Origin: Faecalibacterium sp.
GTDB taxonomy: Bacteria; Bacillota; Clostridia; Oscillospirales; Ruminococcaceae
Length of the DNA: 64,000 nucleotides
Reading direction: 5' to 3'
Assembly: GCA_022652735.1 (NCBI GenBank)
Contig: JALCRP010000002.1
Location: forward strand, 1 to 64,000
In this document: positions 4,605 to 45,480 of the stretch, piece after piece
Numbering within the stretch: position 1 is the stretch's first letter
Layout of the letters: the number at the start of each line of letters is the position of its first letter
The notes under the pieces: generated by a model
What the model saw: only the letters and a program-made list of their open reading frames with translations
Told to the model about the DNA's origin: nothing
Databases searched by the model: none
Translations under genes and position numbers: made by a program

Positions 4605-4615
4605 GGAGGCCCCCG

Positions 4616-5893: not shown

Positions 5894-5911
5894 AGAAAGA
5901 GGGCCCTCATC

Positions 5912-6028
5912 ATGCATGAGAAACGGCGCAAGCGCTTTATTCGCTTTGTGTGTCTGGCTATCGCAATCATTTTTGCGGCTTCGATCGTAACATCTCTGGC
6001 AATCCAGATCGCATACTATGCGGGCTGA
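5912..6028 (+). CDS. 38-residue single-span membrane protein between two murein/protease genes
   Basis: An ATG at 5912 opens a 38-codon frame ending at TGA 6028. It encodes a basic N-terminus (HEKRRKRFIRF) followed by one hydrophobic helix (about residues 12-36), a positive-inside single-pass membrane peptide. AGAGGG lies eight bases upstream. It fits exactly between the M23 hydrolase (18-base gap) and the S41 protease (44-base gap) on the same strand, so it is probably in the operon. No family was recognised; it may be a small modulator of the hydrolase or of FtsX. The main doubt is its size. Confidence 0.5.
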   Translation: MHEKRRKRFIRFVCLAIAIIFAASIVTSLAIQIAYYAG

Positions 6029-6072
6029 ACTGCGCAAAACTCTCGGCGGAGAAAACCAGAAAGGGAACATCC

Positions 6073-7413: not shown

Positions 7414-7433
7414 CGCAAAATACAGCAAACAAG

Positions 7434-7464
7434 AAAAAAGGCTCCGGTTTCCGGGGCCTTTTTT
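7434..7464 (+). terminator. rho-independent terminator of the ftsEX-protease operon
   Basis: GGCTCCGG (7440-7447) pairs with CCGGGGCC (7451-7458) over a TTT loop, flanked by A-run and six T. The ksgA ribosome binding site AGAAGGGA follows at once. Confidence 0.85.
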
Positions 7465-7482
7465 GACAGAAGGGAATCTGCA

Positions 7483-8346: not shown

Positions 8347-8348
8347 GC

Positions 8349-9023: not shown

Positions 9024-9041
9024 ATGCTGTGCAAAAGCATC

Positions 9042-9070
9042 TTGCGCACAAAGGCCGAGGATGTTATAAT
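9042..9070 (+). promoter_or_regulatory. promoter of tRNA-Thr
   Basis: TTGCGC (9042-9047), exactly 17 bp, then perfect TATAAT (9065-9070), 12 bases upstream of the mature tRNA 5' end. Confidence 0.8.
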
Positions 9071-9082
9071 AGTTCTCGTGAT

Positions 9083-9157
9083 GCTGGTATGGCGCAATGG
9101 CAGCGCAACTGATTTGTAATCAGTAGGTTGTAGGTTCAACTCCTATTACCAGCTCCA
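9083..9157 (+). tRNA. tRNA-Thr (anticodon TGT)
   Basis: A full cloverleaf can be folded: acceptor GCTGGTA/TACCAGC, D stem GCGC/GCGC, anticodon stem ACTGA/TCAGT with loop TTTGTAA (anticodon TGT at 9115-9117), T stem GTAGG/CCTAT with loop TTCAACT, discriminator T9154 and encoded CCA (9155-9157). It has its own promoter and terminator. Confidence 0.97.
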
Positions 9158-9160
9158 AAA

Positions 9161-9196
9161 AATCCCCTGAAGCAAAACAGCTTCAGGGGATTTTGC
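9161..9196 (+). terminator. terminator of tRNA-Thr
   Basis: A 12-bp perfect stem (AATCCCCTGAAG, 9161-9172, with 9181-9192), eight-base loop, then T-rich. It begins four bases after the CCA end. Confidence 0.85.
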
Positions 9197-9276
9197 TTTG
9201 CAAGGGGAACGGCCCGGCAAAGGGCAAAGCGGCATTTGCAAAGAATACAGCGCTTTTTTCTGCGAAAAGAGAGAGC

Positions 9277-10176
9277 TTATTGTGCCGAGGGCTTCCGGCT
9301 CCATTTAATTTCGGAAAGGATCAGCCCGGCCAGCGCCAGCAGCGTGCCCACAACGGAAACCAGATTGATTGGCTCGTGCAGAACAATCGCCGATGTAACC
9401 ACCGTGACGATCGGCGAAAGATAGATGTATACGCTGGTTTTTACGGTGCCCAGCACCTTCAGCGCAAAGTTCCATGTAACAAAGCCGAGCGCGGAAGCAC
9501 ACAGCCCCAAAAACAGGATGTTGAACAAATATACCGGGTTGGTAAACCGCGCAAGCCCCGGCCGAAAACCAAAGAAAAACAGCGCCGGAACCATGAAAAC
9601 AAGGCCGTAGAAAAAGATACGGCGCGTAGTTTGGATCGTGTGGTAGCCAAAGGTGCTGATTTTGCGGGTAAGGTTTGAGTAAAAGGCCCATGTCAGCGCG
9701 GCAAGGCCGGCCAACACATCCCCCACTGGGTTTAAGTGCAGCTGCTCGCCGTGGAAGCTGAGCAGCGCGATGCCGCACATGGCAACCAAGAAGCCTACAA
9801 AAAACGAAACATGAAACTTTTCTTCGCCATGAAAAACATAGCGGCTCAAAAGCGCCGTGAAAAACGGCGCGATCGAAATAATGACGCCCGCATTTGAGGC
9901 AAGGGTAAACGTGAGCGCAATGTTTTCCAGCAGGAAATACAGCGTGACGCCCGTAAGCCCGGCCAGCGCAAAAAGCAGCTCCTGCCGGCGGGTGGTGCCT
10001 TTCATGCGGTGGGGATAGACAAGCTCCAGCAAAAGCAGCCCCATCACAAAGCGGTAGAATAAAATCTCTACGGGCTGAAACCCGGTAAGCAAAACCTTTG
10101 TGGAAATATAAGTTGTGCCCCAGACAACGATCGTCAAAAATGCCAAAAGGTGCCCGAGCGAAGCCTTCTTTTCCAT
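9277..10176 (-). CDS. DMT superfamily (EamA-type) transporter
   Basis: The 299-residue protein has ten predicted transmembrane helices in two EamA repeats; WGTTYISTKVLL near the N-terminus and ALTWAFYSNLTRK in the middle are typical. Members export amino acids, metabolites or drugs; the substrate cannot be read from sequence. ATG 10176 is preceded by GAGAGAGGG seven bases upstream; an in-frame ATG at 10203 lacks such a site. A second EamA transporter lies at 17700. It stands alone between tRNA-Thr and the citrate synthase gene on the same strand. Confidence 0.87.
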   Translation of the reverse strand: MEKKASLGHLLAFLTIVVWGTTYISTKVLLTGFQPVEILFYRFVMGLLLLELVYPHRMKGTTRRQELLFALAGLTGVTLYFLLENIALTFTLASNAGVIISIAPFFTALLSRYVFHGEEKFHVSFFVGFLVAMCGIALLSFHGEQLHLNPVGDVLAGLAALTWAFYSNLTRKISTFGYHTIQTTRRIFFYGLVFMVPALFFFGFRPGLARFTNPVYLFNILFLGLCASALGFVTWNFALKVLGTVKTSVYIYLSPIVTVVTSAIVLHEPINLVSVVGTLLALAGLILSEIKWSRKPSAQ

Positions 10177-10291
10177 AATCCCTCTCTCTTTTCCTATGCG
10201 CACAGGCGGCGCAGCAATGCTTTTATTTTACTACAAAGGCAGGGAAAATACAGGAAAAGCAGCATTTTGGGCAGATAACACAAAAGCAAAG

Positions 10292-10323
10292 GAAAAGAGC
10301 CTTCGGCTTTTGCCAAAGGCTCT
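10292..10323 (-). terminator. terminator of the citrate synthase gene
   Basis: On the minus strand AGAGCCTTTGGC pairs with GCCGAAGGCTCT (12 bp, one wobble) over a short loop, followed by TTTTCC. It lies about 50 bases after the citrate synthase stop. Confidence 0.75.
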
Positions 10324-10374
10324 GCTGGTTTGGGTTTTCTATGCGTAGGGCAAAGCGGCTGTATCCGCTTGCGC

Positions 10375-11730
10375 TCAGCGCGCTTCGAGCGGGATATAAT
10401 CGCGCCGCGGCTCGACGGATTTGTACGCAGGGCGGATGATCTTGCCCATGTTAATCAGCTCCTCCATGCGGTGCGCGCTCCAGCCGGCCATACGGGCCAC
10501 GGCAAACAGCGGCGTATACAGCTCGGTGGGGATGTTCAGCATGCGGTAGACAAAGCCGGAATAAAAATCGACGTTAGCGGAAACGCCCTTGTAGATATGG
10601 CGCTCCTCAGCAATTACTTCGGGGGCCAGGCGCTCGACGGCACTGTACAGGGCATATTCTTTTCCAAGGCCTTTTTCCTTGCTAAGCTGCGCGACGCTTC
10701 TGTGCAGGATCGTGGCGCGCGGGTCGCTGATGGAATAGATCGCGTGGCCCATGCCATAGATCAGGCCCGCATGGTCGAAGCGCTCGCGGTGCAGCAGGCC
10801 GCGCAGATAGGCGCGGATCGCATCCTCATCCGTCCAATCGGTCAGGTTGGCCTTCATATCTTCAAACATGCGCGTAACTTTGATGTTAGCGCCGCCGTGG
10901 CGCGGGCCTTTTAGGCTGGCGAGCGCAGCCGCGATACAGCTGTAGGTATCGGTGCCGCTGCTGGTAACGACGTGCGTGGTAAAGGTGGAGTTGTTGCCGC
11001 CGCCGTGCTCTGCATGGAGCACAAGGCACAAATCAAGGATGCGCGCTTCAAGCGGGGTATAGCCCGTATCCGGCCGCAGCAGCGTAAGGATGTTTTCGGC
11101 CGTCGAAAGGTCAGGCCGGGGCGCATGGATGTACAGGCTTTGGCCGGCCTTGTAAGCATAGGCCTGATAGCTGTAGACGGCGATCAGCGGCAGAATCGAA
11201 AGCAAATCGACACACTGGCGCACAACATTGGGCAAAGAAATATCGTCGGCGGCGCTGTCGTAGCCGGCCATTGTCAGCACACTGCGGGCCAGCGAGTTCA
11301 TCATATCTTGGCTTGGCGCCTTCATCACAACATCGCGCACAAAATTGGAGGGTAGGGTGCGGTAAAGCCCGAGCTGATAGTGAAAATCCTCGAGCTGCTG
11401 ATGCGTCGGCAGCTGGCCGAACATCAAAAGAAAAGCGGTTTCCTCAAAGCCGAAACGGCCGCTTTGCGTAAAATCTTCTACAAGGGCCTCGATCGGGTAG
11501 CCGCGATAATACAGCTCGCCTTCGCAGGGCACGAGCTTGCCGTCCACTTCCTTGGAAGAGACGATTTCGCTGATCTCGGTCAGGCCGGCCACTACGCCGA
11601 TGCCGTTCACATCTCGCAGGCCGCGCTTCACATCATAGCGCGTGTAATCGGCGGGGTCGATGCTGCTGTTTTGGCTGCAAAGGGAAGCGAGCGCTTCCAG
11701 CTCAGGTGTGATACGGGAAAAATCCTCCAT
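10375..11730 (-). CDS. gltA: citrate synthase
   Basis: The 451-residue enzyme condenses oxaloacetate and acetyl-CoA to citrate, feeding 2-oxoglutarate and glutamate synthesis in anaerobes with a partial TCA cycle. Family motifs are clear: HAEHGGGNNSTFT with a catalytic histidine, SLKGPRHGGAN, GMGHAIYSISDPRA with the second histidine, and the C-terminal FYSGFVYRMLNIP with the catalytic aspartate just before it. The start is ATG 11730, nine bases after AAGGAGG; a TTG 33 bases upstream is in frame but unneeded. No aconitase or isocitrate dehydrogenase gene is adjacent. A methylcitrate-synthase role cannot be ruled out but has no supporting neighbours. Confidence 0.93.
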   Translation of the reverse strand: MEDFSRITPELEALASLCSQNSSIDPADYTRYDVKRGLRDVNGIGVVAGLTEISEIVSSKEVDGKLVPCEGELYYRGYPIEALVEDFTQSGRFGFEETAFLLMFGQLPTHQQLEDFHYQLGLYRTLPSNFVRDVVMKAPSQDMMNSLARSVLTMAGYDSAADDISLPNVVRQCVDLLSILPLIAVYSYQAYAYKAGQSLYIHAPRPDLSTAENILTLLRPDTGYTPLEARILDLCLVLHAEHGGGNNSTFTTHVVTSSGTDTYSCIAAALASLKGPRHGGANIKVTRMFEDMKANLTDWTDEDAIRAYLRGLLHRERFDHAGLIYGMGHAIYSISDPRATILHRSVAQLSKEKGLGKEYALYSAVERLAPEVIAEERHIYKGVSANVDFYSGFVYRMLNIPTELYTPLFAVARMAGWSAHRMEELINMGKIIRPAYKSVEPRRDYIPLEAR

Positions 11731-12083
11731 CTTCGGCGTCCTCCTTTTTGTTCCTTTTGGCAAATTGAAAGTACGTCCAGTATAGCAATAAAATACTGCA
11801 AAAGGAAGAATAAATTGTAAATTATGAAAATAGTACCATTTGTATAAAAATATACCATGTGCACGAAAAAAGACAAAACGTCAACCGAGTAAGGCGTATA
11901 GGGCTTGGAATTTGCAGGAAAGAATGTTTGGCGGCCTGTAAAAATGCGCAATAAACGCATAGCCTTTCGCGTGGGATTCCGCTATAATAGGGCCGTGCAA
12001 ACCAAAGGCAATGTGCCGGGGCTTTTGCCGCGCACGGCCGGCGGAACTTTATAAGCCGAAGAGAGAGCAGGAGGGAGAAAAAG
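11731..12083. other. 353-bp A+T-rich divergent intergenic region
   Basis: This gap separates citrate synthase (-) from the MATE gene (+). I see -10-like boxes for each direction: TATACT on the minus strand near 11779 and a perfect TATAAT at 11983-11988 on the plus strand, neither with a good -35. The middle is A+T-rich. No open frame has a credible ribosome binding site, and no RNA structure was recognised. Confidence 0.5.
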
Positions 12084-13481
12084 ATGCAGGTTTCGCATAC
12101 ACAGGATATGACGACAGGCAGCGTGACCGGCCACCTGATTCGCTTCTCGCTGCCGCTTTTGGCCGGAAACCTTTTCCAGCAGCTTTATAACATGGTCGAT
12201 TCCATCGTGGTCGGCAACTATGTTGGCGCCAACGCGCTGGCCGCTGTCGGGGCGTGTGGGTCGCTGAACTTTTTATTTTTTGCGATGACTTCTGGCGTTG
12301 CCATCGGCGTTGGCATCCTGATCTCGCAGTTTTTTGGGGCAGGAGATACCGCGCAGGTGAAGCGCACCATCGCGAACTCGATATATGTGCTTGGGGTAAT
12401 CTCGGTTTTGGTCAGCGCGGTAGGGTTCTGCTTTGCGCGCCAGATTCTGGTTTTTCTTTCCACGCCCGCCGAAATTTTGGCGGACGCGACGATCTATTTG
12501 CAGACAACCTGCGCCGGCATCGTGGCTGTGGCGGCCTATAACGGCATTTCCGCCGTGCTGCGCGCGCTGGGCGATTCACGTACGCCGCTGATCTTTTTGA
12601 TCTTGGCCAGCGTCATCAATGTCGTGCTGGATCTTGTATTTGTGCTGTACTTTCACGCCGGTGTGTTCGGCGTGGCGCTGGCTACGATTTTTGCACAAGC
12701 CATTTCGGCGATCTCCTGCATTTTTTACGCTTGCCGGCGGCTGCCGTATTTTCGGCTTTCGCCCGCCGAGCGCGCGCTGGATAGCGGCATTATCGTGCGT
12801 TCGCTCGAAATCGGCACTCCTGTCGCGCTGCAAAGCTCTTTGATCGCCATTTCCTGCCTTGTGCTGCAAAGCGTAGTAAACGGCTTTGGCCCGACGGTAG
12901 TAGCAGTATTTACGGTTACTTCCCGCATCGAGCAACTGATCCAGCAGCCGTACTCCTCGCTTTCCACCGCTGTGACGACTCTGACGGGCCAAAATATCGG
13001 CGCGGGCAAAATTGAGCGTGTGCGCGCCGGCATGCGCAGCGCGACATGGATCACGCTGGCGTTCAGCCTTGGCATGCTGCCCGTGATTTGGTTTTTCGGC
13101 GGCGCGATCGTGGCGGCTTTTGTAAAAGAGCCGGAAGTGATTTCGATGGGCATCACGGCGCTGCGCATTACCAGCGTGTGCTATTTTCCGCTGGGCATGA
13201 TCTATATGCCGCGCGCGCTGTTGAACGGCGCGGGCGATGCGCGCTTTGCCATGATAAACGGGCTTACGGAAGTGGTCTGCCGTATCGTCTTTTCCAACTG
13301 GCTGACCCATATCGCGGCGCTGGGCTGCTGGGGCATCTGGATCACCTCCGGCGCGACATGGACGGTGACGGCCTGCGTTTGCCTTGCCCGATACTTTGGC
13401 GGAAAATGGAAAACGATGCGCCTTGTGGCGGCGCGCCCGGCGGACGCCGCGCCACAGCCGCCCGCCGAAAGGAGAACATGA
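12084..13481 (+). CDS. MATE family multidrug/metabolite efflux transporter
   Basis: The 465-residue protein has twelve predicted transmembrane helices in two MatE halves; GNLFQQLYNMVDSIVVGNYVG near the N-terminus and LTGQNIGAGK in the second half are family signatures. MATE proteins export cationic drugs or metabolites using Na+ or H+ gradients. The start follows AGGAGGGAG. Its stop codon TGA (13479-13481) overlaps the start of the SpoU methyltransferase, so the two are translationally coupled, although a functional link is not obvious. A second MATE gene lies at 36993. Confidence 0.9.
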   Translation: MQVSHTQDMTTGSVTGHLIRFSLPLLAGNLFQQLYNMVDSIVVGNYVGANALAAVGACGSLNFLFFAMTSGVAIGVGILISQFFGAGDTAQVKRTIANSIYVLGVISVLVSAVGFCFARQILVFLSTPAEILADATIYLQTTCAGIVAVAAYNGISAVLRALGDSRTPLIFLILASVINVVLDLVFVLYFHAGVFGVALATIFAQAISAISCIFYACRRLPYFRLSPAERALDSGIIVRSLEIGTPVALQSSLIAISCLVLQSVVNGFGPTVVAVFTVTSRIEQLIQQPYSSLSTAVTTLTGQNIGAGKIERVRAGMRSATWITLAFSLGMLPVIWFFGGAIVAAFVKEPEVISMGITALRITSVCYFPLGMIYMPRALLNGAGDARFAMINGLTEVVCRIVFSNWLTHIAALGCWGIWITSGATWTVTACVCLARYFGGKWKTMRLVAARPADAAPQPPAERRT

Positions 13482-14308
13482 TGCCGAATATTATAGAAAT
13501 TACGGACCTTGCGCGGCCGGAGCTGGATGTTTTTGCGCGCCTGACAGAGGCACAGTTGCGCAATCGGCTGGAGCCGGAAAAGGGCATCTTTATTGCCGAA
13601 AGCCCAAAGGTGATCGAGGTTGCCCTAAACGCCGGGTGCGAGCCTGTCTCTTTTTTGATGGAGCGGCGGCATTTGGCGGGGGATGCACAGGGCATTTTGG
13701 CCCGGTGCGGGGCGGTACCCGTTTACACGGGCGAAAGCGAGCTGCTGGCCGGGCTGACGGGCTTTCGGCTGACGCGCGGTGTTTTGTGCGCCATGCGCCG
13801 CCCGCAACAGCCCACGCCTGAGGCGCTTTGCGCGGGCGCAAGCCGCGTGGCCGTATTGGAGGGCATCGTGGACGCCACCAATATTGGCGCGATTTTTCGC
13901 TCGGCGGCGGCGCTGCACATGGATGCCGTGCTGCTTACCCCTACTTGCTGCGATCCGCTGAACCGGCGCGCCGTGCGCGTAAGCATGGGCACCGTTTTTC
14001 AGGTGCCGTGGGCGCGCCTTGGCAGCGAGGCGGCCGAGTGGCCGCAGCAAGGGCTGGCGCGGCTAAAAAAGCTTGGCTTCCACACGGCGGCGATGGCGCT
14101 AAGCGATACCGCCGTCAGTATCGAGGACGCGCGCTTGGCCGCCGAGCCGAAGCTTGCCATCGTGCTGGGCACAGAGGGCGACGGGCTGGCGCATGAGACG
14201 ATTGCGGCCTGCGATGATACGGTGCGCATCCCGATGTCGCACGGCGTAGATTCTCTGAACGTGGCAGCCGCCAGCGCGGTGGCGTTCTGGCAGCTGCGGG
14301 CGCGGTAA
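13481..14308 (+). CDS. SpoU/TrmH family RNA 2'-O-methyltransferase
   Basis: The 275-residue protein has an N-terminal substrate-binding segment (1-100) and a SPOUT knot domain (about 115-275) with the three motifs DATNIGAIFRSAAAL, VLGTEGDGL and IPMSHGVDSLNVAAA. Such enzymes methylate a ribose in tRNA or 23S rRNA using SAM; the target is not deducible. Two consecutive ATG codons (13478, 13481) are possible; AAAGGAG at 13468-13474 is better spaced to 13481. It overlaps the MATE stop codon. Confidence 0.9.
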   Translation: MPNIIEITDLARPELDVFARLTEAQLRNRLEPEKGIFIAESPKVIEVALNAGCEPVSFLMERRHLAGDAQGILARCGAVPVYTGESELLAGLTGFRLTRGVLCAMRRPQQPTPEALCAGASRVAVLEGIVDATNIGAIFRSAAALHMDAVLLTPTCCDPLNRRAVRVSMGTVFQVPWARLGSEAAEWPQQGLARLKKLGFHTAAMALSDTAVSIEDARLAAEPKLAIVLGTEGDGLAHETIAACDDTVRIPMSHGVDSLNVAAASAVAFWQLRAR

Positions 14309-36992: not shown

Positions 36993-38348
36993 TTGCCTGC
37001 ACAAACAGCCAGCGAAAAACAACATGCCTATATGATAAAAACCCCGATCCCGACGCTGGTGATGAGCCTTGCGCTGCCAACGGCGGCCAGCCAGCTTGTC
37101 TCGGTGGTATACAATACGGCCGACACCTATTTTGTCTCGCAGATCGGGACGAGCGCTTCGGCGGCCGTCGGCGTCGTCTTTTCGCTGATGTCGATTTTGC
37201 AGGCATTCGGCTTTGGCCTCGGCATGGGGGCCAGCAGCCTCATCAGCCGCAACCTCGGCGCAAAAAATGAGGAAATGGCGTTTCGGTATGCAAACAGCGC
37301 TTTGTTTGCGGCGCTGGCGGTGGGCAATCTGCTGCTGGCGGGCGGCCTTTTGTGCTTGCAGAATCTGATGCGGGTGCTCGGCTCAACCCAGACGATCCTG
37401 CCGTATGCCTGCGCGTATGGGCGGCTGATTTTGATCGGCGCGCCGATTATGTGTGCCTCGTGTGTGCTGAATAACATTTTGCGCGCCGAGGGCAAAGCCG
37501 TGCTTTCGATGTGGGGCCTGTGCGCCGGCAGCCTGCTGAACCTGATTTTGGACCCGCTGTTTATTTTTAAGCTTCGCATGGGCATTGCGGGCGCGGCGCT
37601 GGCTACGATTTTAAGCCAAGCGATCAGCTTTTGCATCTTGCTCAGCGCGTTTGCGCACGGAAAAAGTATCGTGCGTTTGGGCCTGCGGTGGGTAAGCCAC
37701 TGCCCGGCGGATTACATCAACATCTGTAAAAACGGCTTTCCCACCATTTGCCGGCAGGGCATGGCGAGCGTAGCCTCTGCGCTTTTGAACGTGAGCGCCG
37801 GCGCCTACGGTGATGCCGCAGTGGCCGCCGTTACCATTGCCAACAAAGTGTACCTGCTTGTGCGCAACCTTGTGATCGGCATCGGGCAGGGCTTTCAGCC
37901 CGTGGCGGGCTATAACTTCGGCGCGGGCAACCGTCGGCGCGTCAAAGAGGCGTTCCGCTTTGCCTGTTTGCTGGGGACATGCCTGTGCATGGCCGCCGCG
38001 GCCATGCTGCTGTTCCGCGCGGGGGCGGTGATCGGCTGGTTCCGGGATGACCCGGACGTTATCCGCATCGGCACAGGGGCGCTGTACTACGCCTGCGCCG
38101 TGATGCCGCTGATGGCATATTCCACGTATGTCAACCAGCTGTACCAGTGCCTCGGCTTTAGCCGGGCGGCGACGCTGCTGGCATCCTGCCGGCAGGGCAT
38201 CCTATTTCTCCCCTTGGTGTTAATTTTGCCGCGCGTGATCGGCCTTGCGGGCATTCAGGGCGTGCAGCCTGCGGCCGATTTTTTGACCTTTTGCGTTTCC
38301 GTGCCGTTTCAGATTGTGTTCTTCCGGCACGTTCTTTCGGAAAAATAG
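36993..38348 (+). CDS. MATE family efflux transporter heading the salvage operon
   Basis: The 451-residue protein has twelve predicted transmembrane helices; LALPTAASQLVSVVYNTADTYFVSQIG and GYNFGAGNRRRV are MATE signatures. The start is TTG 36993, six bases after GGAGG; ATG 37032 is a possible alternative without a good site. The aldolase gene follows after 20 bases and mtnA and deoD after that, so it may export a product of that pathway or simply share the transcript. It differs clearly from the MATE at 12084. Confidence 0.87.
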   Translation: MPAQTASEKQHAYMIKTPIPTLVMSLALPTAASQLVSVVYNTADTYFVSQIGTSASAAVGVVFSLMSILQAFGFGLGMGASSLISRNLGAKNEEMAFRYANSALFAALAVGNLLLAGGLLCLQNLMRVLGSTQTILPYACAYGRLILIGAPIMCASCVLNNILRAEGKAVLSMWGLCAGSLLNLILDPLFIFKLRMGIAGAALATILSQAISFCILLSAFAHGKSIVRLGLRWVSHCPADYINICKNGFPTICRQGMASVASALLNVSAGAYGDAAVAAVTIANKVYLLVRNLVIGIGQGFQPVAGYNFGAGNRRRVKEAFRFACLLGTCLCMAAAAMLLFRAGAVIGWFRDDPDVIRIGTGALYYACAVMPLMAYSTYVNQLYQCLGFSRAATLLASCRQGILFLPLVLILPRVIGLAGIQGVQPAADFLTFCVSVPFQIVFFRHVLSEK

Positions 38349-38368
38349 ACAAAACAGGAGGTTATTTG

Positions 38369-39037
38369 ATGCAGTACGAAGCGATGCGCCAGCAAATCTG
38401 CGCCGTAGGCAAGCTGTTGTATGACCGCGGCTATGTCGCCGCGAACGACGGCAACATTTCCGTAAAAGTGGCCGAAAATCGTCTGCTTATCACGCCTTCG
38501 GGCGTAAGCAAGGGCCGCATGACGCCGGATATGATGCTTTTGACGGATTTGGACGGCAATGTGATCGAGGGCGATCGGCATCCATCCTCTGAGGGGAAAA
38601 TGCACTTTACCGTTTACCGCCACCGCCCGGATGTGGGCGCCGTCGTCCATGCACACCCCAGCACGGCTACGGCCTTTTCTATCTGCCGCAAGCCGCTGAA
38701 AACGCCTTATCTGGCCGAGCTGGTGCTGGGCCTTGGCGAGGTGCCCGTGACGCCGGCGTTTGCGATGCTTTCCACCGACGAGGTGCCCAAAAGCGTTGAG
38801 CCGTATTTGGCCGAGCACAACGCGGTGATGCTGGCAAACCACGGCGTTTTGACGTGGGGCAGCGAGCTTTGGCAGGCGTTTGACCGCATGGAGACTGTGG
38901 AACATACGGCTAAAACGCTTTTAAACGTGGAGCTTTTAGGCGGCGGCGTACCGCTCTCGGACGAACAGGTAGTGACGCTGATTTCCATGCGCGGCCAGTA
39001 TAAAACGCTGGCACAAAAAACAAAAGGAGCAATTTGA
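38369..39037 (+). CDS. class II aldolase (FucA/Ald2-like)
   Basis: The 222-residue enzyme belongs to the class II aldolase/adducin family: [29 protein letters not shown] (catalytic Glu), [12 protein letters not shown] (zinc His-x-His) and [10 protein letters not shown] (third His). Its place directly before mtnA and deoD suggests cleavage of 5-deoxyribulose-1-phosphate or methylthioribulose-1-phosphate to dihydroxyacetone phosphate and an aldehyde, rather than fuculose-1-phosphate. MtnB dehydratase belongs to the same superfamily and is an alternative. AGGAGG precedes ATG 38369; mtnA starts one base after its stop. Confidence 0.82.
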
Positions 39038-39038
39038 T

Positions 39039-40118
39039 ATGAGCGCACAAACCGATCAAGTAACCCATGTGCAGAACATCCGCTACGATAAAGCAGCCGA
39101 AGCTTTGTACATCATCGACCAAACCCTGCTGCCGAACGAGGAAAAGGAAATCCGCCTGGATACCGCCGAGCAAATGTTTGACGCGATCAAGCTGCTAAAG
39201 ATTCGCGGCGCGCCGGCCATCGGTATCTGCGCGGGCTACTGCATGTATGTGCTGGCGCGGCAAATCCCTGCGGGCAGCGCAGAGGTTTTTTACGCGCGGC
39301 TGGCCGAATACGGCAAATATCTTGACTCCTCACGGCCGACGGCTGTAAATCTGAGCTGGGCCGTGAAGCTCATGCTCGAAACGGCAAAAGAAAATTTGGC
39401 CCAGCCGCGCGCCGCGCTGCTGGAAACGCTGTATCAAAAGGCCGTCTGGATTCATCAGGACGACATCGCCAAGTGTACGGCCATTTCGGAATACGGCCTT
39501 TCGCTTTTGCACGAAGGCGACGGTATCCTGACGCACTGCAACGCCGGGCCGCTGGCTACCTCGCGCTACGGCACAGGGCAGGGGCCGCTGTTTTTGGCGG
39601 CCGAGCGCGGCATGAAAATCCACGTATTTTCCGACGAGACGCGCCCGCTTTTGCAGGGCGCGCGCCTGACCAGCTATGAGCTTTACCGCGCGGGCGTCGA
39701 TGTGACGCTGATCTGCGACAATATGGCCAGCATGGTGATGAAAAACGGCTGGGTACAGGCATGCTTTGTCGGGTGCGACCGCGTGGCCGCCAACGGCGAC
39801 GCCGCCAATAAGATCGGCACCTCCGGCGTGGCGATCCTCGCCAAGCATTACGGCATCCCGTTTTACGTGCTTGGGCCGACCTCTACGATCGACATGAACT
39901 GCCCCACCGGCGCGGACATTCCGGTTGAACTGCGCAACCCCGACGAGATCAAGACCATGTGGTATGAAAAACCGATGGCGCTGCCGGGCGTTAAGTGCTA
40001 CAACCCTGCATTTGATGTGACGGATCACAGCCTGATCGCCGGCATTGTGACGGAAAAAGGCATTTGCCGCGCGCCGTACACCGAAAGCCTCGCCGCTTTG
40101 TTTACCGAAAAAAGATAA
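39039..40118 (+). CDS. mtnA: S-methyl-5-thioribose-1-phosphate isomerase
   Basis: The 359-residue enzyme converts the aldose phosphate MTR-1-P (or 5-deoxyribose-1-phosphate) to the ketose phosphate. Motifs: [32 protein letters not shown] (catalytic Cys), [19 protein letters not shown] (catalytic Asp) and [13 protein letters not shown]. Length is normal for MtnA and distinguishes it from eIF2B-type proteins. It is the second enzyme of a three-gene unit; no mtnK kinase is present, but DeoD would make the phosphate directly. Confidence 0.93.
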
Positions 40119-40132
40119 AGGAGAAATGTACT

Positions 40133-40855
40133 ATGACACCATCTGCCTGCAACGAAGCTAAAAAAGGCGACATCGCCAAAGTTGTTCTGATGCCCGGAGA
40201 CCCGCTGCGCGCCAAATTTGTGGCCGAGCACTATCTCGAAAACCCGGTGTGCTTTAACACGGTGCGCAACATGCTGGGCTACACAGGCACGTATAAGGGC
40301 AAAACCATCTCCGTGATGGGCCACGGCATGGGTGTGCCTTCCATCGGGCTGTACACCTACGAGCTGTATCAGATGTTTGACGTGAATTCCATCATCCGCA
40401 TCGGCTCGGCAGGCGGCGTCGGCGACAACGTGCATGTGCGCGACGTTGTCATTGCGATGGGCGCCTCGACAAACAGCCACTTCGCCGATCAATATCAGTT
40501 CCCCGGGCAGCTTTGTGCCACGGCCAACTACGATCTGTTGAAGGATGCCGTCGCCAGCGCCGAAAAGCTGGGCGTGCGCGCCGATGTTGGGCAGGTGTTT
40601 ACGGCGGATCAGTTCTATAACGACAACGCCGAGGCGGGCCAGATGTACAAAAAGTTCGGCATCCTCGCGCTGGAGATGGAGACGGCCGGCCTTTACTGGA
40701 CGGCACAGCGCCTAGGCAAAAAGGCGCTTTCCATCCTGACGATCTCCGACCACATTTTCACGGGAGAATCTCTTTCCGCCGAGGATCGGCAGGATTCTTT
40801 CCACGAGATGATGGAAGTTGCGCTCGAAACCGCATGGAAATCGCTGGAAAAATAA
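40133..40855 (+). CDS. deoD: purine nucleoside phosphorylase, DeoD type
   Basis: The 240-residue enzyme phosphorolyses purine nucleosides to base and ribose-1-phosphate. VLMPGDPLRAKFVAEHYLE (phosphate-binding Arg), RNMLGYTGTYKGK, GHGMGVPS, RIGSAGGVGDNV, LEMETAGLY (ribose-binding Glu) and TISDHIF with the catalytic Asp match hexameric PNP. Being 14 bases after mtnA, it may act on MTA or 5'-deoxyadenosine to feed that enzyme, although ordinary purine salvage is also possible. AAAGGAG precedes ATG 40133. A terminator follows. Confidence 0.93.
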   Translation: MTPSACNEAKKGDIAKVVLMPGDPLRAKFVAEHYLENPVCFNTVRNMLGYTGTYKGKTISVMGHGMGVPSIGLYTYELYQMFDVNSIIRIGSAGGVGDNVHVRDVVIAMGASTNSHFADQYQFPGQLCATANYDLLKDAVASAEKLGVRADVGQVFTADQFYNDNAEAGQMYKKFGILALEMETAGLYWTAQRLGKKALSILTISDHIFTGESLSAEDRQDSFHEMMEVALETAWKSLEK

Positions 40856-40889: not shown

Positions 40890-41087
40890 ATATGAGCACC
40901 AAAGAAAAAGCAAACGCGGCAAAGAAAGGGCGGGGCGGCGAAAAATGCGGCAAAGGCCCGGCTTACTATGCCCGGCCTGTTAAATTTTTGTGCAAAATCC
41001 GGCGATGCGTTTGCATTTTAGCGGGCACTACGGTAAAATGTATACTAACCGTACTATGGGGCTTTGTGCCCCGGAAAGAAGGGGCTT

Positions 41088-41738
41088 ATGGCAAAGGTCA
41101 GCCCGTCGATCCTTTCGGCAGACTTTTCCGCGCTGGGCGCATGCTGCCGCACGGTATTGGACGCCGGGGCGGATATGCTGCATTTCGATGTGATGGACGG
41201 CATTTTTGTGCCGAATATCAGCTTTGGGGTGCCGGTATTGAAAAGCATCCATAAGGCGTTTCCGCAGGCGTTTTGGGATGTACATCTGATGATCGAGCGC
41301 CCGGCAGAGTACGTGGCGGCTTTTGCAAAGGCGGGCGCAAGCCTGATTAGCTTCCACCTTGAAAGTGAAGGCGACCCGGCCGAAACGCTGGCTGCGATCC
41401 GCGCGGCGGGCTGCAAAACCGGCATTGTGCTGAAACCCGGCACACCCGCATCGGCGGCCGCGCCGTATCTTGCCGGGGTGGATCTTGTGCTGGTGATGAG
41501 CGTGGAGCCGGGCTTCGGCGGGCAGAAATTTCAGCCCGCGGCCTGCGAAAAGCTCCGCGCGCTGGCCGCGATGCGGAAGGCTTCCGGCGCGCACTTTTTA
41601 CTGGAAGTGGATGGCGGAATCAACGCGGAAACGGGCAGAATGTGTACAGAGGCCGGGGCAGATATTTTGGTTGCGGGGAGCGCCGTATTTGCCGCGCAAA
41701 ACCCGGCGGCAGCCGTCCGCACTTTGGCGGAACTGTAA
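41088..41738 (+). CDS. rpe: ribulose-phosphate 3-epimerase
   Basis: The 216-residue TIM barrel interconverts ribulose-5-phosphate and xylulose-5-phosphate. SPSILSADFSALG, HFDVMDGIFVPNISFG, DVHLMIERP, MSVEPGFGGQKF and EVDGGINAET hold the metal ligands and catalytic Asp residues. ATG 41088 is preceded by GAAAGAAGGGG; the frame is open upstream but unsupported. A TATACT box at 41041-41046 may be its -10. The Rnf-like gene starts 15 bases after its stop, so the two are probably cotranscribed, an unusual pairing. Confidence 0.93.
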   Translation: MAKVSPSILSADFSALGACCRTVLDAGADMLHFDVMDGIFVPNISFGVPVLKSIHKAFPQAFWDVHLMIERPAEYVAAFAKAGASLISFHLESEGDPAETLAAIRAAGCKTGIVLKPGTPASAAAPYLAGVDLVLVMSVEPGFGGQKFQPAACEKLRALAAMRKASGAHFLLEVDGGINAETGRMCTEAGADILVAGSAVFAAQNPAAAVRTLAEL

Positions 41739-41753: not shown

Positions 41754-43028
41754 ATGAAAAAAGTAAACGAGGCGCCGAATACCGAACGGCAGGCGCCCGC
41801 AACGAAAAAGGAGCCGCATAAGGCAAAGCGGGCTGCACAGGAAAACGTATCGGCCGCAAAGCCGGAAGCCGCCGCGCCGAAAAAACAGGCCGCAGAGAGT
41901 GTGCCTGAAAAGGCTACGGCCGCAAAGCCGGAAGCCGCCGCCGCACCCGCGCCAAAAGAGGCAAAAAAGCCCGCCCACGCGGCCCAAAAGCCGAAAGGCC
42001 CTACGGTGCAGGAGGTTACGATAACGCTGCCGGCGCCGAATCAGGCAAAGCACCGCCGCTATTATAAGGATCTCTGCTTTATGGTGATCCCGCTGCTGTG
42101 CATGGCGTACTATTATTACGGCCTGCGCCCGGTGCTGATGTGCGCAGTGGCGCTTGTTACCGGCAACCTGTGCGACCGCTTGGTGGCAAAGCTGCGCGGC
42201 CGCGCCTACGTGCCCGACGATTACTCCAACGAGAGCTTCGCTATGCTCATCGCGCTGATGATGCCCGCCACGGTAAGCTGGTATGTGCTGATCGTGGCCG
42301 TGCTTTCGGGCGTGTTGATCGGCAAAGAGGCGTTTGGCGGCTATGGCAGCTATCCGTTCCACCCCTCGGCGGTGGGCTATGTAGTGGCGGCCGTCTCGTG
42401 GCCGAACCAAGTGTTCCGCTATCCGCAGCCGTTTACAATGGTGCCACTGTGGGATACTTCTTCCGTTGCGGTGCAAAACGGCATTCCCGCCACCCTGAAA
42501 AACGGCGGTGTGCCGGGTGTCGATCAAATGGACCAGCTGCTGGGCAACTACGCCGGCCCCATCGGCACCACGGCGATCCTTGTGATCGTGGCATGCGCGC
42601 TGTTTTTGTTGGTACGGCATGACATCAACCTGTATGCGCCGCTGTCGTTTTTGGCTGTCATCGCGGCAATCGCATTTATTTTCCCGCGGCAGGGCGGCTT
42701 GGAAGGCACCGGCATCCTCGAAACGCTGCCGGCCCGCCTTAACATCATGCGGTATGAGCTGCTTTCGGGCGCAATGCTGTTTGGTGCGGTATTTTTGATG
42801 GGTGAGCCGTTCACTTCGCCGCGGCGCCACCGCAGCGGCAAAATTTTGTACGGCGCGCTGCTTGGCGCGGCGGCGATGGCTTTCCGCTATTTCGGCGCGT
42901 ATGATACCGGCCTGTGCTTTGCGCTGCTGGCGGTAAACAGCATTTCTGAATGGCTGGATGCCCTCGTGGAAAGCCTCCATACGCTGACCCACGGGGCACA
43001 AACGCAGAAAGGGGGAGACGCCGCATGA
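41754..43028 (+). CDS. RnfD/NqrB-family membrane protein lacking the flavinylation motif
   Basis: The 424-residue protein starts with about 95 residues rich in Ala, Lys and Pro, then has about ten transmembrane helices typical of RnfD: YGLRPVLMCAVALVTGNL, FGGYGSYPFHPSAVGYV, LLGNYAGPIGTTAIL, and RYELLSGAMLFGAVFL. In canonical RnfD and NqrB, FMN is attached to Thr in the motif S/T-G-A-T about 50 residues after the HP/NP motif; here the aligned stretch (233-249) reads WDTSSVAVQNGIPATLK and S/T-G-A-T occurs nowhere. The GETS motif is GTTA. Redox function is therefore doubtful. It overlaps the next gene by four bases. Confidence 0.85.
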   Translation: MKKVNEAPNTERQAPATKKEPHKAKRAAQENVSAAKPEAAAPKKQAAESVPEKATAAKPEAAAAPAPKEAKKPAHAAQKPKGPTVQEVTITLPAPNQAKHRRYYKDLCFMVIPLLCMAYYYYGLRPVLMCAVALVTGNLCDRLVAKLRGRAYVPDDYSNESFAMLIALMMPATVSWYVLIVAVLSGVLIGKEAFGGYGSYPFHPSAVGYVVAAVSWPNQVFRYPQPFTMVPLWDTSSVAVQNGIPATLKNGGVPGVDQMDQLLGNYAGPIGTTAILVIVACALFLLVRHDINLYAPLSFLAVIAAIAFIFPRQGGLEGTGILETLPARLNIMRYELLSGAMLFGAVFLMGEPFTSPRRHRSGKILYGALLGAAAMAFRYFGAYDTGLCFALLAVNSISEWLDALVESLHTLTHGAQTQKGGDAA

Positions 43029-43675
43029 GAGCAGAACATGCACAAATGATCGTGGAGGATATGGAGCATTATATCCATCATGACCGCATCTTCCTAAATA
43101 ACCCTGCGGTGATGCAGGGCATGGGCCTTGCGCCGCTTGTCATTATAGCGACGACGGGCCGCTATGCCGGGATGCTGATCGTGGCGCTGGCCATGCTGCT
43201 GATCCCCACGCGCGTAATCAGCAGCGTATTGTTCCAAAAGCTCGAGCAGCCGCTGCTGCGCGCAATGGGCTACTGCGGCGTGGCCGCGGCCGTTTATGTC
43301 TTGGCGCGCATGGCGATGAACAGCATGTTCGGCACCGATACGCTGGAGCTGGGCGTGTATCTGCCGCTGCTCGTGGTCGATCCGCTTGTTATCTACCGCC
43401 ACGGCCGTGTGCCCGAAAGCACCTATAATGCATTCTCAAAGGGCCTGCGCATTATGGTGGGCTACAGCCTTGTGCTTTTGTTGGTGGGATGCCTGCGTGA
43501 AGTGCTGGCGATGGGAACACTGTTCGGCCACACGGTCGGTAAGGTGTTGGCCTTCCCGCTTTTGAACCAGCCGGCCGGCGGGTTCATTCTGGTGGGCGTA
43601 CTGTTCGCTGTCTGGCGCGGGGCCTGCAGCTGGTATATCAAGTATGTGAAAGAGGAGGCAAAGCGCGGCGTATGA
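43025..43675 (+). CDS. RnfE/NqrD-family membrane protein lacking the iron-sulfur cysteines
   Basis: The 216-residue protein has about six transmembrane helices and the RnfE plan: FLNNPAVMQGMGLAPLV, ELGVYLPLLVVDPLVIYRHG and GCLREVLAMGTLFG. In canonical RnfE the first reads GLCP and the second TNC; here the cysteines are replaced by Ala36 and Pro120, so the intramembrane 2Fe-2S cluster should not be bound. ATGA overlaps with both neighbours show translational coupling. GAAAGGGGG lies upstream of ATG 43025. Confidence 0.82.
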   Translation: MRAEHAQMIVEDMEHYIHHDRIFLNNPAVMQGMGLAPLVIIATTGRYAGMLIVALAMLLIPTRVISSVLFQKLEQPLLRAMGYCGVAAAVYVLARMAMNSMFGTDTLELGVYLPLLVVDPLVIYRHGRVPESTYNAFSKGLRIMVGYSLVLLLVGCLREVLAMGTLFGHTVGKVLAFPLLNQPAGGFILVGVLFAVWRGACSWYIKYVKEEAKRGV

Positions 43676-44283
43676 ACAGTGTAATTTCGGCGCTTGGCGT
43701 CTTTTTCCTTTATGCGGTGATGGCCGCGTTTGCCCAAAACGCCGTGCTGGCGCGCGGCATGGGCGTTTCGCGCTTGGTGCAGCTTGTCGGCGACGACGAT
43801 ACCTCGAGCCTTTTGTTCAGCCTTGAGCTGTGCGTGATCTGCCTGATGAACGCGCTGCTGGCTTGGCTGCTGGTGCGCTGGGTTGAGCCGTTTGCGTGGC
43901 ACACGCTGGTGCGGCCGCTGGGCTATGTGGCCTGTACCTGCATCAGCTGTGGGCTTTTGTGGCTTGTGCTGACGTATGCGCAGAAAATGCCGCGGCGGAT
44001 GCAGCTGCGCGATATGCTGCCCAACGCGGGCTTTAACAGCTGCGTGGCCGGCACCCTTTTGGTTACGACGACGCAGAGCTATACGCTGGCACAATCGTTT
44101 GGCTATGCGCTGGGCAGCGGCGTGGGCTATCTGCTGGCCGTTGCGCTGGTGGCGGAGGCCCGCCGCCGCTTGCAGGGCAGCGAAGTGCCGCAGGCCTTTA
44201 AGGGCCTGCCCATCGTTTTGGTCTATATCGGGATTTTGGCGCTGGCAATCTATGGCTTTACCGGCCATGCCATAGCAATTTAA
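43672..44283 (+). CDS. RnfA/NqrE-family membrane protein with cysteine ligands replaced
   Basis: The 203-residue protein has about six transmembrane helices and the RnfA plan: FAQNAVLARGMGVSRLV near the N-terminus, LRDMLPNAGFNSCVAGTLL in the middle and the C-terminal EVPQAFKGLPIVLVYIGILALAIYGFTG, the last being highly RnfA-like. Canonical RnfA has GLCP and TNC; here the positions align to Ser33 and Ser123 (with a Cys at 124). It completes the trio; RnfB, RnfC and RnfG are not encoded here. AAAGAGGAGG precedes ATG 43672. Confidence 0.82.
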   Translation: MNSVISALGVFFLYAVMAAFAQNAVLARGMGVSRLVQLVGDDDTSSLLFSLELCVICLMNALLAWLLVRWVEPFAWHTLVRPLGYVACTCISCGLLWLVLTYAQKMPRRMQLRDMLPNAGFNSCVAGTLLVTTTQSYTLAQSFGYALGSGVGYLLAVALVAEARRRLQGSEVPQAFKGLPIVLVYIGILALAIYGFTGHAIAI

Positions 44284-44340: not shown

Positions 44341-45480
44341 ATGGCAAAGAAAAATTCTATGGGTAAGGTAAAGCGCTATCGCCACAGCTTTTACAGCGGG
44401 CGCCTTTTCCTCGCAAAAAAAGCGATTGCATGGGTGGTAGGCATTGCGGCGCTGTTCGCAGTTGGCTTTTTGGCGGCGCCGGCCGTGCTCAACTGGGGCA
44501 CCCATGTGTGGTATACGAAAATCAAGGGCCTGAATTTGAGCCAAAGCACCTCGGTAGCCGAAAGCGAGCCTGCCTCGTCGGCGGCCTCCTCGGAGGCTGC
44601 AAGCACCGCTTCGGAGCAGGCAGCCTCTACGCCGACGGCACAAATCGGAGAAGGCAGCTGGACGACGCTGAGCCTTGCGGCCCTGGGCGATCAGACGGCC
44701 ATCGACCAGGCGGCCGCCGACCTTGCCACGCAGGGGGTGCACTACGGGGTTGTGCCCTTGAAAGATGCAAGCGGCTACATCTATTACGCTTCGGCCGTGC
44801 CCAACGCGGCCAAGAGCATCGCCGCCACGACGATCGACGCTTCGGCCACGGCCGCGGCGCTGAAGGCAAAGGGCATCGTGCCGGTGGCGTATCTGTGCGC
44901 CTTTCAGGATCCTCTTTCCGCCTATACCGACCGCACAATGGCAATCCATTATGGCGGCAGCGATTATTTGTGGCTGGATGCGGCATCGGACGCAGGCGGC
45001 AAGCCGTGGCTCAACCCGTATGCCGACACAGCGGTACAGTATATCGGCGACTTGATCGAGGAAGCCTATAACATGGGCTATGAGCAGGTGATCCTTTCGA
45101 CGGCACAGTTCCCTGCCTATGTCGGCGCTAAGCAGGATTTTGGCGATACGCAGGGCAGAGACCGCGCCGCCCAGCTGACGCAGGATTTTGCGGCGTGGGA
45201 AACGCGCTTTGATGGCCGTGTAACCTTGTGGTATGAGGTTTCTTATGCGAACTGCGCCGCGCCCGGCACGGCGCTGGGCGATAGCATGCCCGGCGCGCTG
45301 GGCGTTGAAAACCTGATGATCCAGCTTCCGGCAGAATCGGATACTTCGGCGGAAAGCGCCGCCAGCGCCAGCGCGCCCGGCGGGCAGGCTGTGACGTTGG
45401 AGGACGTGGTGCAGGCGATGAAGGATAACGGCTGTGCCTATGTGGTGGTGCGCGATGGCACCACCGGAAATTTGGCCTGA
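44341..45480 (+). CDS. membrane-anchored glycosyl-hydrolase-like protein (DUF4015/GHL13-like)
   Basis: The 379-residue protein has a basic N-terminus, one transmembrane helix (about 28-52), a Ser/Ala/Glu linker (about 68-100) and an extracellular TIM-barrel-like domain (about 105-375). DYLWLDAASDAGGKPWLNPY and GDLIEEAYNMGYEQVILST recall the GHL13/DUF4015 group. Catalytic residues cannot be assigned. It follows the Rnf-like trio after 57 bases with TTAGGAGG, so it may be part of the same operon. Glycan substrate unknown. Confidence 0.68.
   Translation: MAKKNSMGKVKRYRHSFYSGRLFLAKKAIAWVVGIAALFAVGFLAAPAVLNWGTHVWYTKIKGLNLSQSTSVAESEPASSAASSEAASTASEQAASTPTAQIGEGSWTTLSLAALGDQTAIDQAAADLATQGVHYGVVPLKDASGYIYYASAVPNAAKSIAATTIDASATAAALKAKGIVPVAYLCAFQDPLSAYTDRTMAIHYGGSDYLWLDAASDAGGKPWLNPYADTAVQYIGDLIEEAYNMGYEQVILSTAQFPAYVGAKQDFGDTQGRDRAAQLTQDFAAWETRFDGRVTLWYEVSYANCAAPGTALGDSMPGALGVENLMIQLPAESDTSAESAASASAPGGQAVTLEDVVQAMKDNGCAYVVVRDGTTGNLA

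Follow-up and report, generated by a model that had tools for sequence, protein, structure and literature searches.

What does a set of Rnf membrane subunits do once the sites that carry electrons are gone? Three genes of a Faecalibacterium sp. genome (GenBank assembly GCA_022652735.1) raise this question; they lie in a window that comprises the first 64,000 nucleotides of contig JALCRP010000002.1. An original prediction held that these overlapping genes encode proteins of RnfD, RnfE, and RnfA architecture which appear to have lost every redox cofactor site and which form a repurposed, non-redox membrane complex, perhaps a transporter or channel. It would have been refuted by ligand cysteines present at shifted positions or by confinement of the trio to this genome with signs of decay. 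We refer to the products as D', E', and A'. The genes and their neighbors are as follows.

41064 to 41738, plus strand: rpe, ribulose-phosphate 3-epimerase (PF00834, 231.9 bits), ending 15 bases before D'
41754 to 43028, plus strand: D', RnfD/NqrB homolog of 424 amino acids (PF03116, 197.7 bits)
43025 to 43675, plus strand: E', RnfE/NqrD homolog of 216 amino acids (PF02508, 77.8 bits)
43672 to 44283, plus strand: A', RnfA/NqrE homolog of 203 amino acids (PF02508, 61.5 bits)
44341 to 45480, plus strand: single-helix protein of 379 amino acids with a DUF4015 glycosidase-like domain (PF13200, 49.4 bits against a cut-off of 27), starting 57 bases after A'

The coordinates and Pfam matches agree with the predicted architecture. 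ATGA overlaps join D' to E' (43025 to 43028) and E' to A' (43672 to 43675), as read in the sequence, and all three proteins pass the Pfam cut-offs (PF03116, PF02508), indicating that a homologous RnfD/RnfE/RnfA core is present. They miss the NCBIfam cut-offs for rnfD (139.4 for D' versus 207.05), rnfE (56.2 for E' versus 213.4), and rnfA (73.0 for A' versus 229.3); as a control, the canonical RnfD of the same genome, which carries a complete rnfCDGEAB elsewhere, clears the rnfD cut-off at 254.1. D' has PF03116 as its sole Pfam domain and bears a charged N-terminal extension of approximately 95 residues. The best PDB match of an AlphaFold2 model of its residues 97 to 424 (pLDDT 93) is RnfD (9eri_D, TM 0.77), and all 15 matches at E ≤ 0.001 in a fold search with this model are RnfD or NqrB; urea transporters rank below these, and Rh and Amt lower still. 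The trio from 134 loci forms one clade, separate from three canonical sets, and in a tree A' falls with RnfA and E' with RnfE. Common descent of D', E', and A' with RnfD, RnfE, and RnfA is established at the level of predicted protein sequence.

When E' and A' are aligned to solved chains, Ala36 and Pro120 of E' and Ser33 and Ser123 of A' fall where the four [2Fe-2S] ligand cysteines would be; these are the residues that had been named originally.

43130 to 43132, plus strand: codon of E' Ala36, at the position of the first cluster cysteine by alignment to solved chains
43379 to 43384, plus strand: codons of E' Asp119-Pro120, which stand for Asn107-Cys108 of A. woodii RnfE
43768 to 43773, plus strand: codons of A' Ser33-Arg34, which stand for Cys25-Pro26 of canonical RnfA
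44038 to 44043, plus strand: codons of A' Ser123 (cluster position) and Cys124 (next residue), by alignment to solved chains

Among relatives, neither cluster cysteine of E' is present in any of 135 rows, and the first one of A' is missing from all 137. At the second A' position, Cys remains in 50 of 137 rows, the column at residue 123 reading Cys, Ser, Thr, or Gly in 50, 41, 31, and 9 rows, respectively. Both cysteines are retained in all canonical controls (28/28 RnfA and 28/28 RnfE; rows missed by a strict pattern were read by eye). Cys124 of A' was considered as a shifted ligand and rejected because column 123 varies in this way among relatives and the other three positions are never Cys; no shifted position supplies any of the lost cysteines.

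The flavinylated threonine of RnfD is absent from D' in the alignments, consistent with the reported lack of an S/T-G-A-T motif at residues 233 to 249.

42450 to 42500, plus strand: codons of D' residues 233 to 249, the loop expected to hold the flavinylated Thr, without S/T-G-A-T in alignment to 9eri_D and 7zc6_D
42351 to 42362, plus strand: codons of D' Tyr200 to His203, which stand for riboflavin-site residues N120 and N123 of A. woodii RnfD
42804 to 42806, plus strand: codon of D' Glu351, which stands for riboflavin ligand D249

A similar tetrapeptide occurs somewhere in 18 of 135 D' rows; 13 of these lie in a later helix, as placed by eye in the alignments, and one (L058) lies in the loop. 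RnfD has a second, non-covalent flavin site, which the original prediction did not consider. The riboflavin triad of this site is altered in D' (Tyr200, His203, and Glu351 versus N120, N123, and D249 of A. woodii).

The trio loci were scanned for partner subunits with profile models of RnfB, RnfG, and RnfC built from 44, 37, and 16 sequences, respectively. RnfG was found at 0 of 86 trio loci, and the same model detected it at every one of 17 canonical loci. RnfB was not found at the 86 trio loci, where only weak 4Fe-4S matches (up to 31 bits) appeared, mostly inside a shortened RnfC-like protein (RnfC', or C'). The expected absence of RnfB and RnfG thus extends to all of these loci, while the corresponding claim for RnfC holds at 41754-44283 but not throughout: a reduced RnfC-like gene lies upstream in 32 of 86 trio loci. 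C' was not found in this Faecalibacterium sp. genome, in which the only match is the canonical RnfC (on C22). A putative 33rd RnfC' locus (L067) was dropped as a false match (27 bits, 1218-aa open reading frame), and an RnfC'-D' fusion at L178, L185, and L209 was rejected, the genes being separate; RnfC' carries a coiled-coil-like tail at these three loci. Both [4Fe-4S] motifs (CxxCxxCxxxC) are kept in 32 of 32 RnfC' rows. The FMN loop of RnfC (GG-x-x-FP) is missing from all 32, with [IV]-x-D-E-x-D-G in its place in 26, and because of this absence the FMN/NADH end of the predicted RnfC' has probably been lost.

Of the 32 D' rows beside RnfC', 31 retain N120 and N123, and 31 have Asp or Glu at 249. 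The N-N-D triad also occurs at seven trio loci without RnfC', in genomes in which no RnfC' was found, and, as read by eye, in the D' of two small genomes, G068 and G087, in neither of which RnfC' was found. One row labeled D' by score (L225) was dropped from the triad count (103 rows to 102) and rejected as a D' locus; it belongs to a canonical operon. Because the triad persists where no RnfC' was found, flavin binding without RnfC' may be possible at the seven loci and in G068 and G087. The claim that every redox cofactor site is lost therefore stands for the D'E'A' set at 41754-44283 and for the greater part of its clade. It fails for sister lineages in which an Fe-S RnfC' and the riboflavin triad are retained, and for a few D' rows that hold the triad without RnfC'. 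Redox-site loss is stepwise, in that sister lineages keep RnfC' and the triad and this Faecalibacterium lineage lost both. As judged from alignments and locus scans alone, loss from the trio of the predicted covalent FMN site, at least three of four [2Fe-2S] ligands, RnfB, and RnfG is established, as is loss of RnfC' and the putative triad in this lineage.

Confinement to this genome can be rejected, as 86 genomes carry the set. The trio is conserved across many genera, with its gene order kept at 86 loci. In 13 close pairs, dN/dS ranged from 0.04 to 0.21 for D', 0.07 to 0.28 for E', and 0.06 to 0.42 for A', compared with 0.02 to 0.23 for rpe in the same pairs; selection on all three genes is purifying. 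A normal rnf system commonly coexists with the trio: canonical-type RnfD (325 bits or more) is present in 73 of 84 family genomes examined, and the remaining 11 are for the most part incomplete assemblies. G068 (0.7 Mb, 97% complete) and G087 (0.9 Mb, 97%) each hold one RnfD homolog and one PF02508 match, an E', and an A'-like match also persists; their D' and E' lack the FMN-threonine and the cluster cysteines. PF04060, RnfC of either kind, and canonical rnf were not found in these two genomes, in which predicted gene content thus establishes the persistence of D' and E' (and the A'-like match). Both encode an ATP/ADP translocase (approximately 520 bits) and probably import ATP. In G102 (94% complete), trio genes occur with a single RnfD homolog, and no canonical RnfC was found. 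Some lineages have cleanly lost the trio, leaving rpe adjoining the DUF4015 gene. The spread over many genera, purifying selection, coexistence with canonical-type RnfD, and survival in two genomes without a canonical rnf found all support the proposed repurposing, and we are highly confident that the Rnf-derived D'E'A' set of this lineage is a conserved membrane complex repurposed for a non-redox role. No description of such a trio was found in the literature.

The function of this complex, including the "transporter or channel" first suggested, remains an inference. In one Rnf model, Na+ is pulled into a buried site by an electron that reaches the A/E cluster, and A/E flips from inward to outward (PMC11889175 and PMC12174285); other models place the ion path in RnfD, not A/E (PMC12174285). 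In the reading that we favor, the three proteins would still assemble like RnfA-D-E (inferred, with no heterotrimer model), and A'E' would form a non-redox, ion-gradient-driven alternating-access transport path. A fixed, titratable charge on E'/A' would replace the electron, H+ or Na+ binding at this charge would drive alternating access, and D' would be the substrate path or a scaffold. An acid (Glu/Asp) occupies the N107 position, beside the lost cluster ligand, in 82 of 103 E' rows without RnfC'; the R67 position of RnfE is Arg in 83 of the 103, and the residue after the first lost A' ligand is usually Arg in this clade. E' has Gly where RnfE E115 pairs with R67, and Q85, E88, Y105, and T111 of A. 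woodii RnfA are mostly not retained in A'. Tree mapping gives 4 changes for the E' acid and 16 for the A' Arg/Lys; coevolution of this charge pair is strong by plain counts, and a paired-change test on the tree had no power. The best overall explanation, which we regard as evenly balanced between right and wrong, is that D'E'A' is a neofunctionalized paralog of the Rnf integral core, its RnfA-D-E-like assembly and ion-driven transport being inferred. Ion-coupled transport itself, drawn from the published A/E model with no flux or ion dependence shown, falls slightly short of that balance. More tentative still is the idea of a new transporter class, in which the A/E electron switch was replaced by fixed titratable charges to give an ion-gradient-driven D'E'A'. 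This complex would have arisen in one bacterial order, among relatives of Faecalibacterium, and ATP-importing reduced genomes would have kept its genes after loss of true Rnf.

Other explanations must be weighed against transport. Retention of both [4Fe-4S] motifs in every RnfC' row, and of the triad positions in the adjacent D' and in G068 and G087, would fit a device with residual redox function in the C'D'E'A' lineages. Electrons would stay on the cytoplasmic side and travel only between the two RnfC' clusters and the D' riboflavin, as they pass from riboflavin to an RnfC cluster across 11.7 Å in C. tetanomorphum Rnf (PMC9588780), and redox state would gate the membrane part as a sensor or redox-gated channel. 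The type at 41754-44283 would then be a later, fully non-redox derivative. We consider this unlikely, given that C' has no FMN loop and probably no FMN/NADH end, and that the present genome has no detected C' and an altered triad. An accessory or alternative core working with RnfB, RnfG, and RnfC of the canonical operon is very improbable; canonical-type RnfD does accompany the trio in most family genomes, but the sites on which RnfB and RnfG act are gone, and G068, G087, and G102 keep trio genes with a single RnfD homolog and no canonical RnfC found. Scarcely tenable is the view that an old operon duplication left the trio as a decaying remnant. Although clean trio loss in some lineages would be compatible with decay, we rejected it because it is contradicted by dN/dS of 0.04 to 0.42, near that of rpe, and by the conserved order; the genes are also retained in genomes of 0.7 to 1.0 Mb.

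The linked genes bear on a further alternative. rpe, for which the start at 41064 is mechanical and an ATG at 41088 is likelier, occurs at 85 of 86 trio loci, and the DUF4015 gene occurs at 75 of 86, a median of 25 bases past A' (131 measured loci); the RNA hairpin between A' and DUF4015 is ordinary (z, −0.44). A fold search with a DUF4015 model returned the uncharacterized 4s1a first, followed by Cwp19, which we take to be a wall protein, and several hexosaminidases. Only a figure legend on a YkyA-DUF4015 fusion was found in the literature on this domain. D'E'A' might thus gate or energize the DUF4015 protein, which would trim wall glycans, a reading favored by the linkage, by these fold matches, and by a DUF4015 gene directly 3' of the canonical rnf operon in a genome from another family of the same order (G223). 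We nevertheless judge it quite unlikely: DUF4015 occurs without the trio at 14 fetched loci and the trio without DUF4015 at 11 of 86 (some at contig ends), PF13200 was not found at all in G068 and G087, and five family f24 loci show no DUF4015 label close to the trio.

In Faecalibacterium-like gut bacteria and related organisms, this second conserved Rnf membrane core exists alongside the normal electron-driven ion pump. Because the second core has lost its electron-carrying sites, it suggests a respiratory machine turned into something else, most likely the transporter that we favor. Whether Rnf couples electrons to ions via RnfD or via RnfA/E is disputed (PMC12174285), and a core naturally stripped of its electron centers, with the steps preserved in living relatives, provides a test bed for this coupling; whatever D'E'A' still moves would show the capacity of the ion path without electrons. 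In gut commensals such as Faecalibacterium, Rnf respiration cannot safely be inferred from RnfD/E/A matches alone.

With the Rnf complex (RnfABCDGE; A. woodii 9eri, C. tetanomorphum 7zc6, A. vinelandii 8ahx), the trio shares homology of the D, E, and A subunits, the gene order D-(G)-E-A, the predicted D' fold, an often retained R67 in E', and, at 32 of 86 loci, a reduced RnfC homolog upstream. Unlike Rnf, it has lost at least three of four [2Fe-2S] ligands and the site for covalent FMN, and no RnfB or RnfG was found with it at 86 loci; its RnfC is absent or without the FMN loop, and it is linked to rpe and usually DUF4015. NqrB, NqrD, and NqrE of Na+-NQR (NqrABCDEF) are homologous to the trio, and NQR arose via rnf operon duplication and rnfB loss (PMC4014512); NQR, however, kept the redox chain and recruited NqrF, whereas the trio lineage lost this chain. 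NQR/RNF-like flavinylated systems also comprise a partial set around an NqrB/RnfD homolog, but their defining features are gene clusters associated with flavinylation and an RnfD homolog that bears an NqrF-like NAD domain (PMC8238504), whereas D' has only PF03116. Urea transporters and Amt/Rh channels share a weak fold similarity with D' (dvUT 3me1, E = 3.8e-3, TM 0.38; Rh and AmtB lower), far weaker than its match to RnfD, and a similar likeness has been published for NqrB (PMC10643135).

Three overlapping genes in the window encode homologs of RnfD, RnfE, and RnfA (D', E', and A'; together, the trio), each matching its Pfam family above the curated cutoff:

41754-43028, forward strand: D', RnfD homolog of 424 amino acids, PF03116
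43025-43675, forward strand: E', RnfE homolog of 216 amino acids, PF02508
43672-44283, forward strand: A', RnfA homolog of 203 amino acids, PF02508

Stop and start codons overlap as ATGA at both the D'-E' and E'-A' junctions. All three proteins fall below the NCBIfam cutoffs for rnfD, rnfE, and rnfA; the canonical RnfD of the same genome, serving as a control, passes the rnfD cutoff and belongs to an rnfC-D-G-E-A-B operon on another contig (G000:C22, about 1350-6496). The first ~95 residues of D' (window 41754-42040) form a charged extension, rich in Ala, Lys, Pro, and Glu, that most relatives do not match in alignments. Consecutive genes at 38291-40855 encode a class II aldolase, an IF-2B/MtnA-type isomerase, and a nucleoside phosphorylase, a row that resembles 5-deoxynucleoside salvage or a DHAP shunt.

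We placed the residues of the window proteins by alignment to the solved chains 9eri, 7zc6, and 8ahx and column mapping. The original prediction, that these proteins have lost the cluster cysteines of RnfE and RnfA and the flavinylated threonine of RnfD, was borne out: Ala36 and Pro120 of E' and Ser33 and Ser123 of A' occupy the cysteine positions, and the threonine is absent from D'. The non-covalent riboflavin site of D', which that prediction did not consider, carries Tyr200, His203, and Glu351. Residues that bind this riboflavin are N123 and D249, among others, in A. woodii RnfD (PMC11889175) and N200, N203, and D346, among others, in NqrB (PMC10643135); A. woodii N120 is taken, from the motif, as the putative counterpart of NqrB N200. 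The trio belongs to the RnfD/RnfE/RnfA superfamily but does not pass the tests that define a functional Rnf. Searches of open-licence PMC papers, which leave out subscription journals, turned up no account of an RnfDEA set without cofactors.

These losses extend to relatives. No cysteine occupies either cluster position of E' in 135 aligned rows or the first position of A' in 137, and 50 of these 137 A' rows have a cysteine at the second. As a control, canonical sequences from a phylum-wide search (28 of RnfA, 28 of RnfE) all keep both cysteines (rows missed by the strict pattern were read by eye, and the cysteines were present); this control leaves out L083, the sole trio pair of that set, which is placed in the A' clade of the A-sequence tree. 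Of 135 D' rows, 18 contain a flavinylation-like tetrapeptide. Alignments read by eye put 13 of these in a later helix segment, ELLSGAMLF, and one row (L058) has its tetrapeptide in the correct loop.

D', E', and A' are encoded at one place in at least 86 distinct genomes: 84 belong to the same family as the window, and two to other families of its order; this count is a lower bound because the regions of relatives were a chosen selection. A search that mixes both kinds matched A' or RnfA in 135 of the family's 148 genomes. Of the 80 loci kept from a scan of named genomes, 77 hold the complete trio; represented are, among others, Faecalibacterium prausnitzii, Gemmiger, Fournierella, Ruthenibacterium, Anaerofilum, Pygmaiobacter, and Anaerotruncus. 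At a threshold of 325 bits, canonical-type RnfD occurs in no fewer than 119 of the family's 148 genomes; of the 84 family genomes that carry the trio, 73 have it. Using models built from many canonical sequences, we found RnfG at none of the 86 trio loci (17 of 17 canonical controls detected) and, for RnfB, only weak 4Fe-4S matches (≤31 bits), most within C', a shortened RnfC-like protein.

The gene for C' adjoins that for D' in 32 D' rows; in one further family (f24), C'-D'-E'-A' likewise adjoin rpe in five genomes. Two CxxCxxCxxxC motifs are retained in every one of the 32 C' rows, whereas none has the FMN loop GG-x-x-FP, which is replaced by [IV]-x-D-E-x-D-G in 26. In the accompanying D' proteins, the riboflavin triad (N120, N123, and D249 of A. 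woodii RnfD; N-N-D) is intact or nearly so, with N-N in 31 of 32 and Asp or Glu at the third position in 31 of 32. Among D' rows without C' (103, or 102 once L225 is dropped), N120 is replaced by Tyr in 78 and N123 by His in 46. Exceptions are seven trio rows (L060, L061, L065, L187, L188, L203, and L214) that keep N-N-D without C'; C' was not found in their genomes, three of which (G121, G076, and G144) are incomplete. In a FastTree phylogeny of concatenated proteins, where several long branches meet, the trio forms one clade (134 rows, support 100) against three canonical sets, and C' presence requires two changes. In the tree of A sequences, A' falls to the RnfA side on a long branch (support 100) and E' to the RnfE side.

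C' proteins of Anaerotruncus-like genomes (L178 and L185, about 4065-6284; L209, 1629-3563) carry a coiled-coil-like tail of ~270-400 residues after the Fe-S motifs, reminiscent of the extended tail of RsxC in enterobacteria. A second complete rnfCDGEAB operon (L287, G165:C9:63000-82000; A 9209-9865 and E 9792-10406, minus strand) has FGCGSFF and GNC in A and GLCP and ANG in E, a partial loss of A/E cluster ligands, with RnfG, RnfB, and a flavin motif retained. This operon is possibly an earlier stage of loss or an independent case.

The trio genes are under constraint comparable in range to that of rpe: across 13 close pairs, dN/dS was 0.04-0.21 for D', 0.07-0.28 for E', and 0.06-0.42 for A' (rpe, 0.02-0.23). 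In our view, the most compelling case for a non-redox role is that trio genes persist in genomes that probably import ATP and in which canonical RnfB, RnfC, and RnfD were not found; a redox pump would be of little use there. Two reduced genomes, G068 (0.7 Mb, 97% complete) and G087 (0.9 Mb, 97%), each encode one RnfD homolog, one PF02508 match that is an E' without cluster cysteines, and an A'-like match (sequence read for G068 only); neither PF04060 nor RnfC of either kind was found in them. Both encode an ATP/ADP translocase and therefore probably import ATP. They are likened to the ATP-importing endosymbiotic "small genome clade" (PMC10579323), membership in which is inferred; no Rnf genes are reported for the three genomes of that clade in the paper. 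Because D' and E' lie on different contigs in both, the operon is broken up with the E' gene retained. Their D' proteins, read by eye, lack the flavinylation motif and keep N-N-D, so bound riboflavin cannot be excluded there. The E' genes (L279, 1453-2058, in G068; L280, 1378-2079, in G087) are found close to genes resembling those for elongation factor P and a DNA glycosylase. In a third genome, G102 (1.0 Mb, 94%), C', D', E', and A' are retained, distributed over two contigs; neither canonical RnfD nor canonical RnfC was found, and its sole PF04060 match is in a 579-amino-acid frame elsewhere.

The gene rpe neighbors the trio at 85 of 86 loci, with no functional tie shown. The other flanking gene encodes a DUF4015 protein with one N-terminal helix and a second domain, whose predicted model best matches 4s1a (uncharacterized), then Cwp19 and several hexosaminidases. 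Its linkage to the trio is loose, since 11 of 86 trio loci lack it (75 have it) and DUF4015 occurs in the absence of the trio at 14 fetched loci, of which 11 have rpe. In many lineages a divergent MecA-like gene, oriented the opposite way, separates rpe from the C'/D' genes (e.g., L062, 5379-5960; PF05389, 78.8 bits).

In the model for A. woodii (PMC11889175), Na+ is attracted to a buried site when the A/E cluster is reduced, and A/E flips between inward- and outward-facing states; RnfE R67, E115, L103, V106, and N107 and RnfA Y105 and T110 are important for growth or activity. Other Rnf models place the ion path within RnfD (PMC12174285). Across the 103 E' rows without C', R67 stays Arg in 83, E115 stays Glu in 72, and N107 becomes Glu or Asp in 82; the window E' has Asp119 at the N107 position and Gly at that of E115. 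In 89 of 137 A' rows, the residue immediately after the first lost cysteine is Arg or Lys. From sequence alone, we infer that a fixed, titratable charge may stand in for the electron and that ion-driven alternating access would hence follow. The predicted D' model (pLDDT 93) has RnfD and NqrB as its top matches (15 of 15 at E ≤ 0.001) and matches urea, Rh, and Amt channels weakly, like the resemblance already in print for NqrB (PMC10643135).

At a locus from another family of the order (L225, G223:C5:58000-77000, 7349-13504), a DUF4015 gene built like those linked to the trio comes immediately after a canonical rnf operon that has every cluster cysteine and the flavin motif QATPL. In the tree of A sequences, the branching order among the RnfA of this operon, the A' clade, and the main canonical clade is unresolved. 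Together, these observations suggest that the ancestor of the trio was a second rnf operon with DUF4015 linked to it beforehand, and that B, G, and the electron centers were lost later. NQR likewise arose by duplication of an rnf operon and loss of rnfB (PMC4014512) but retained its redox chain.
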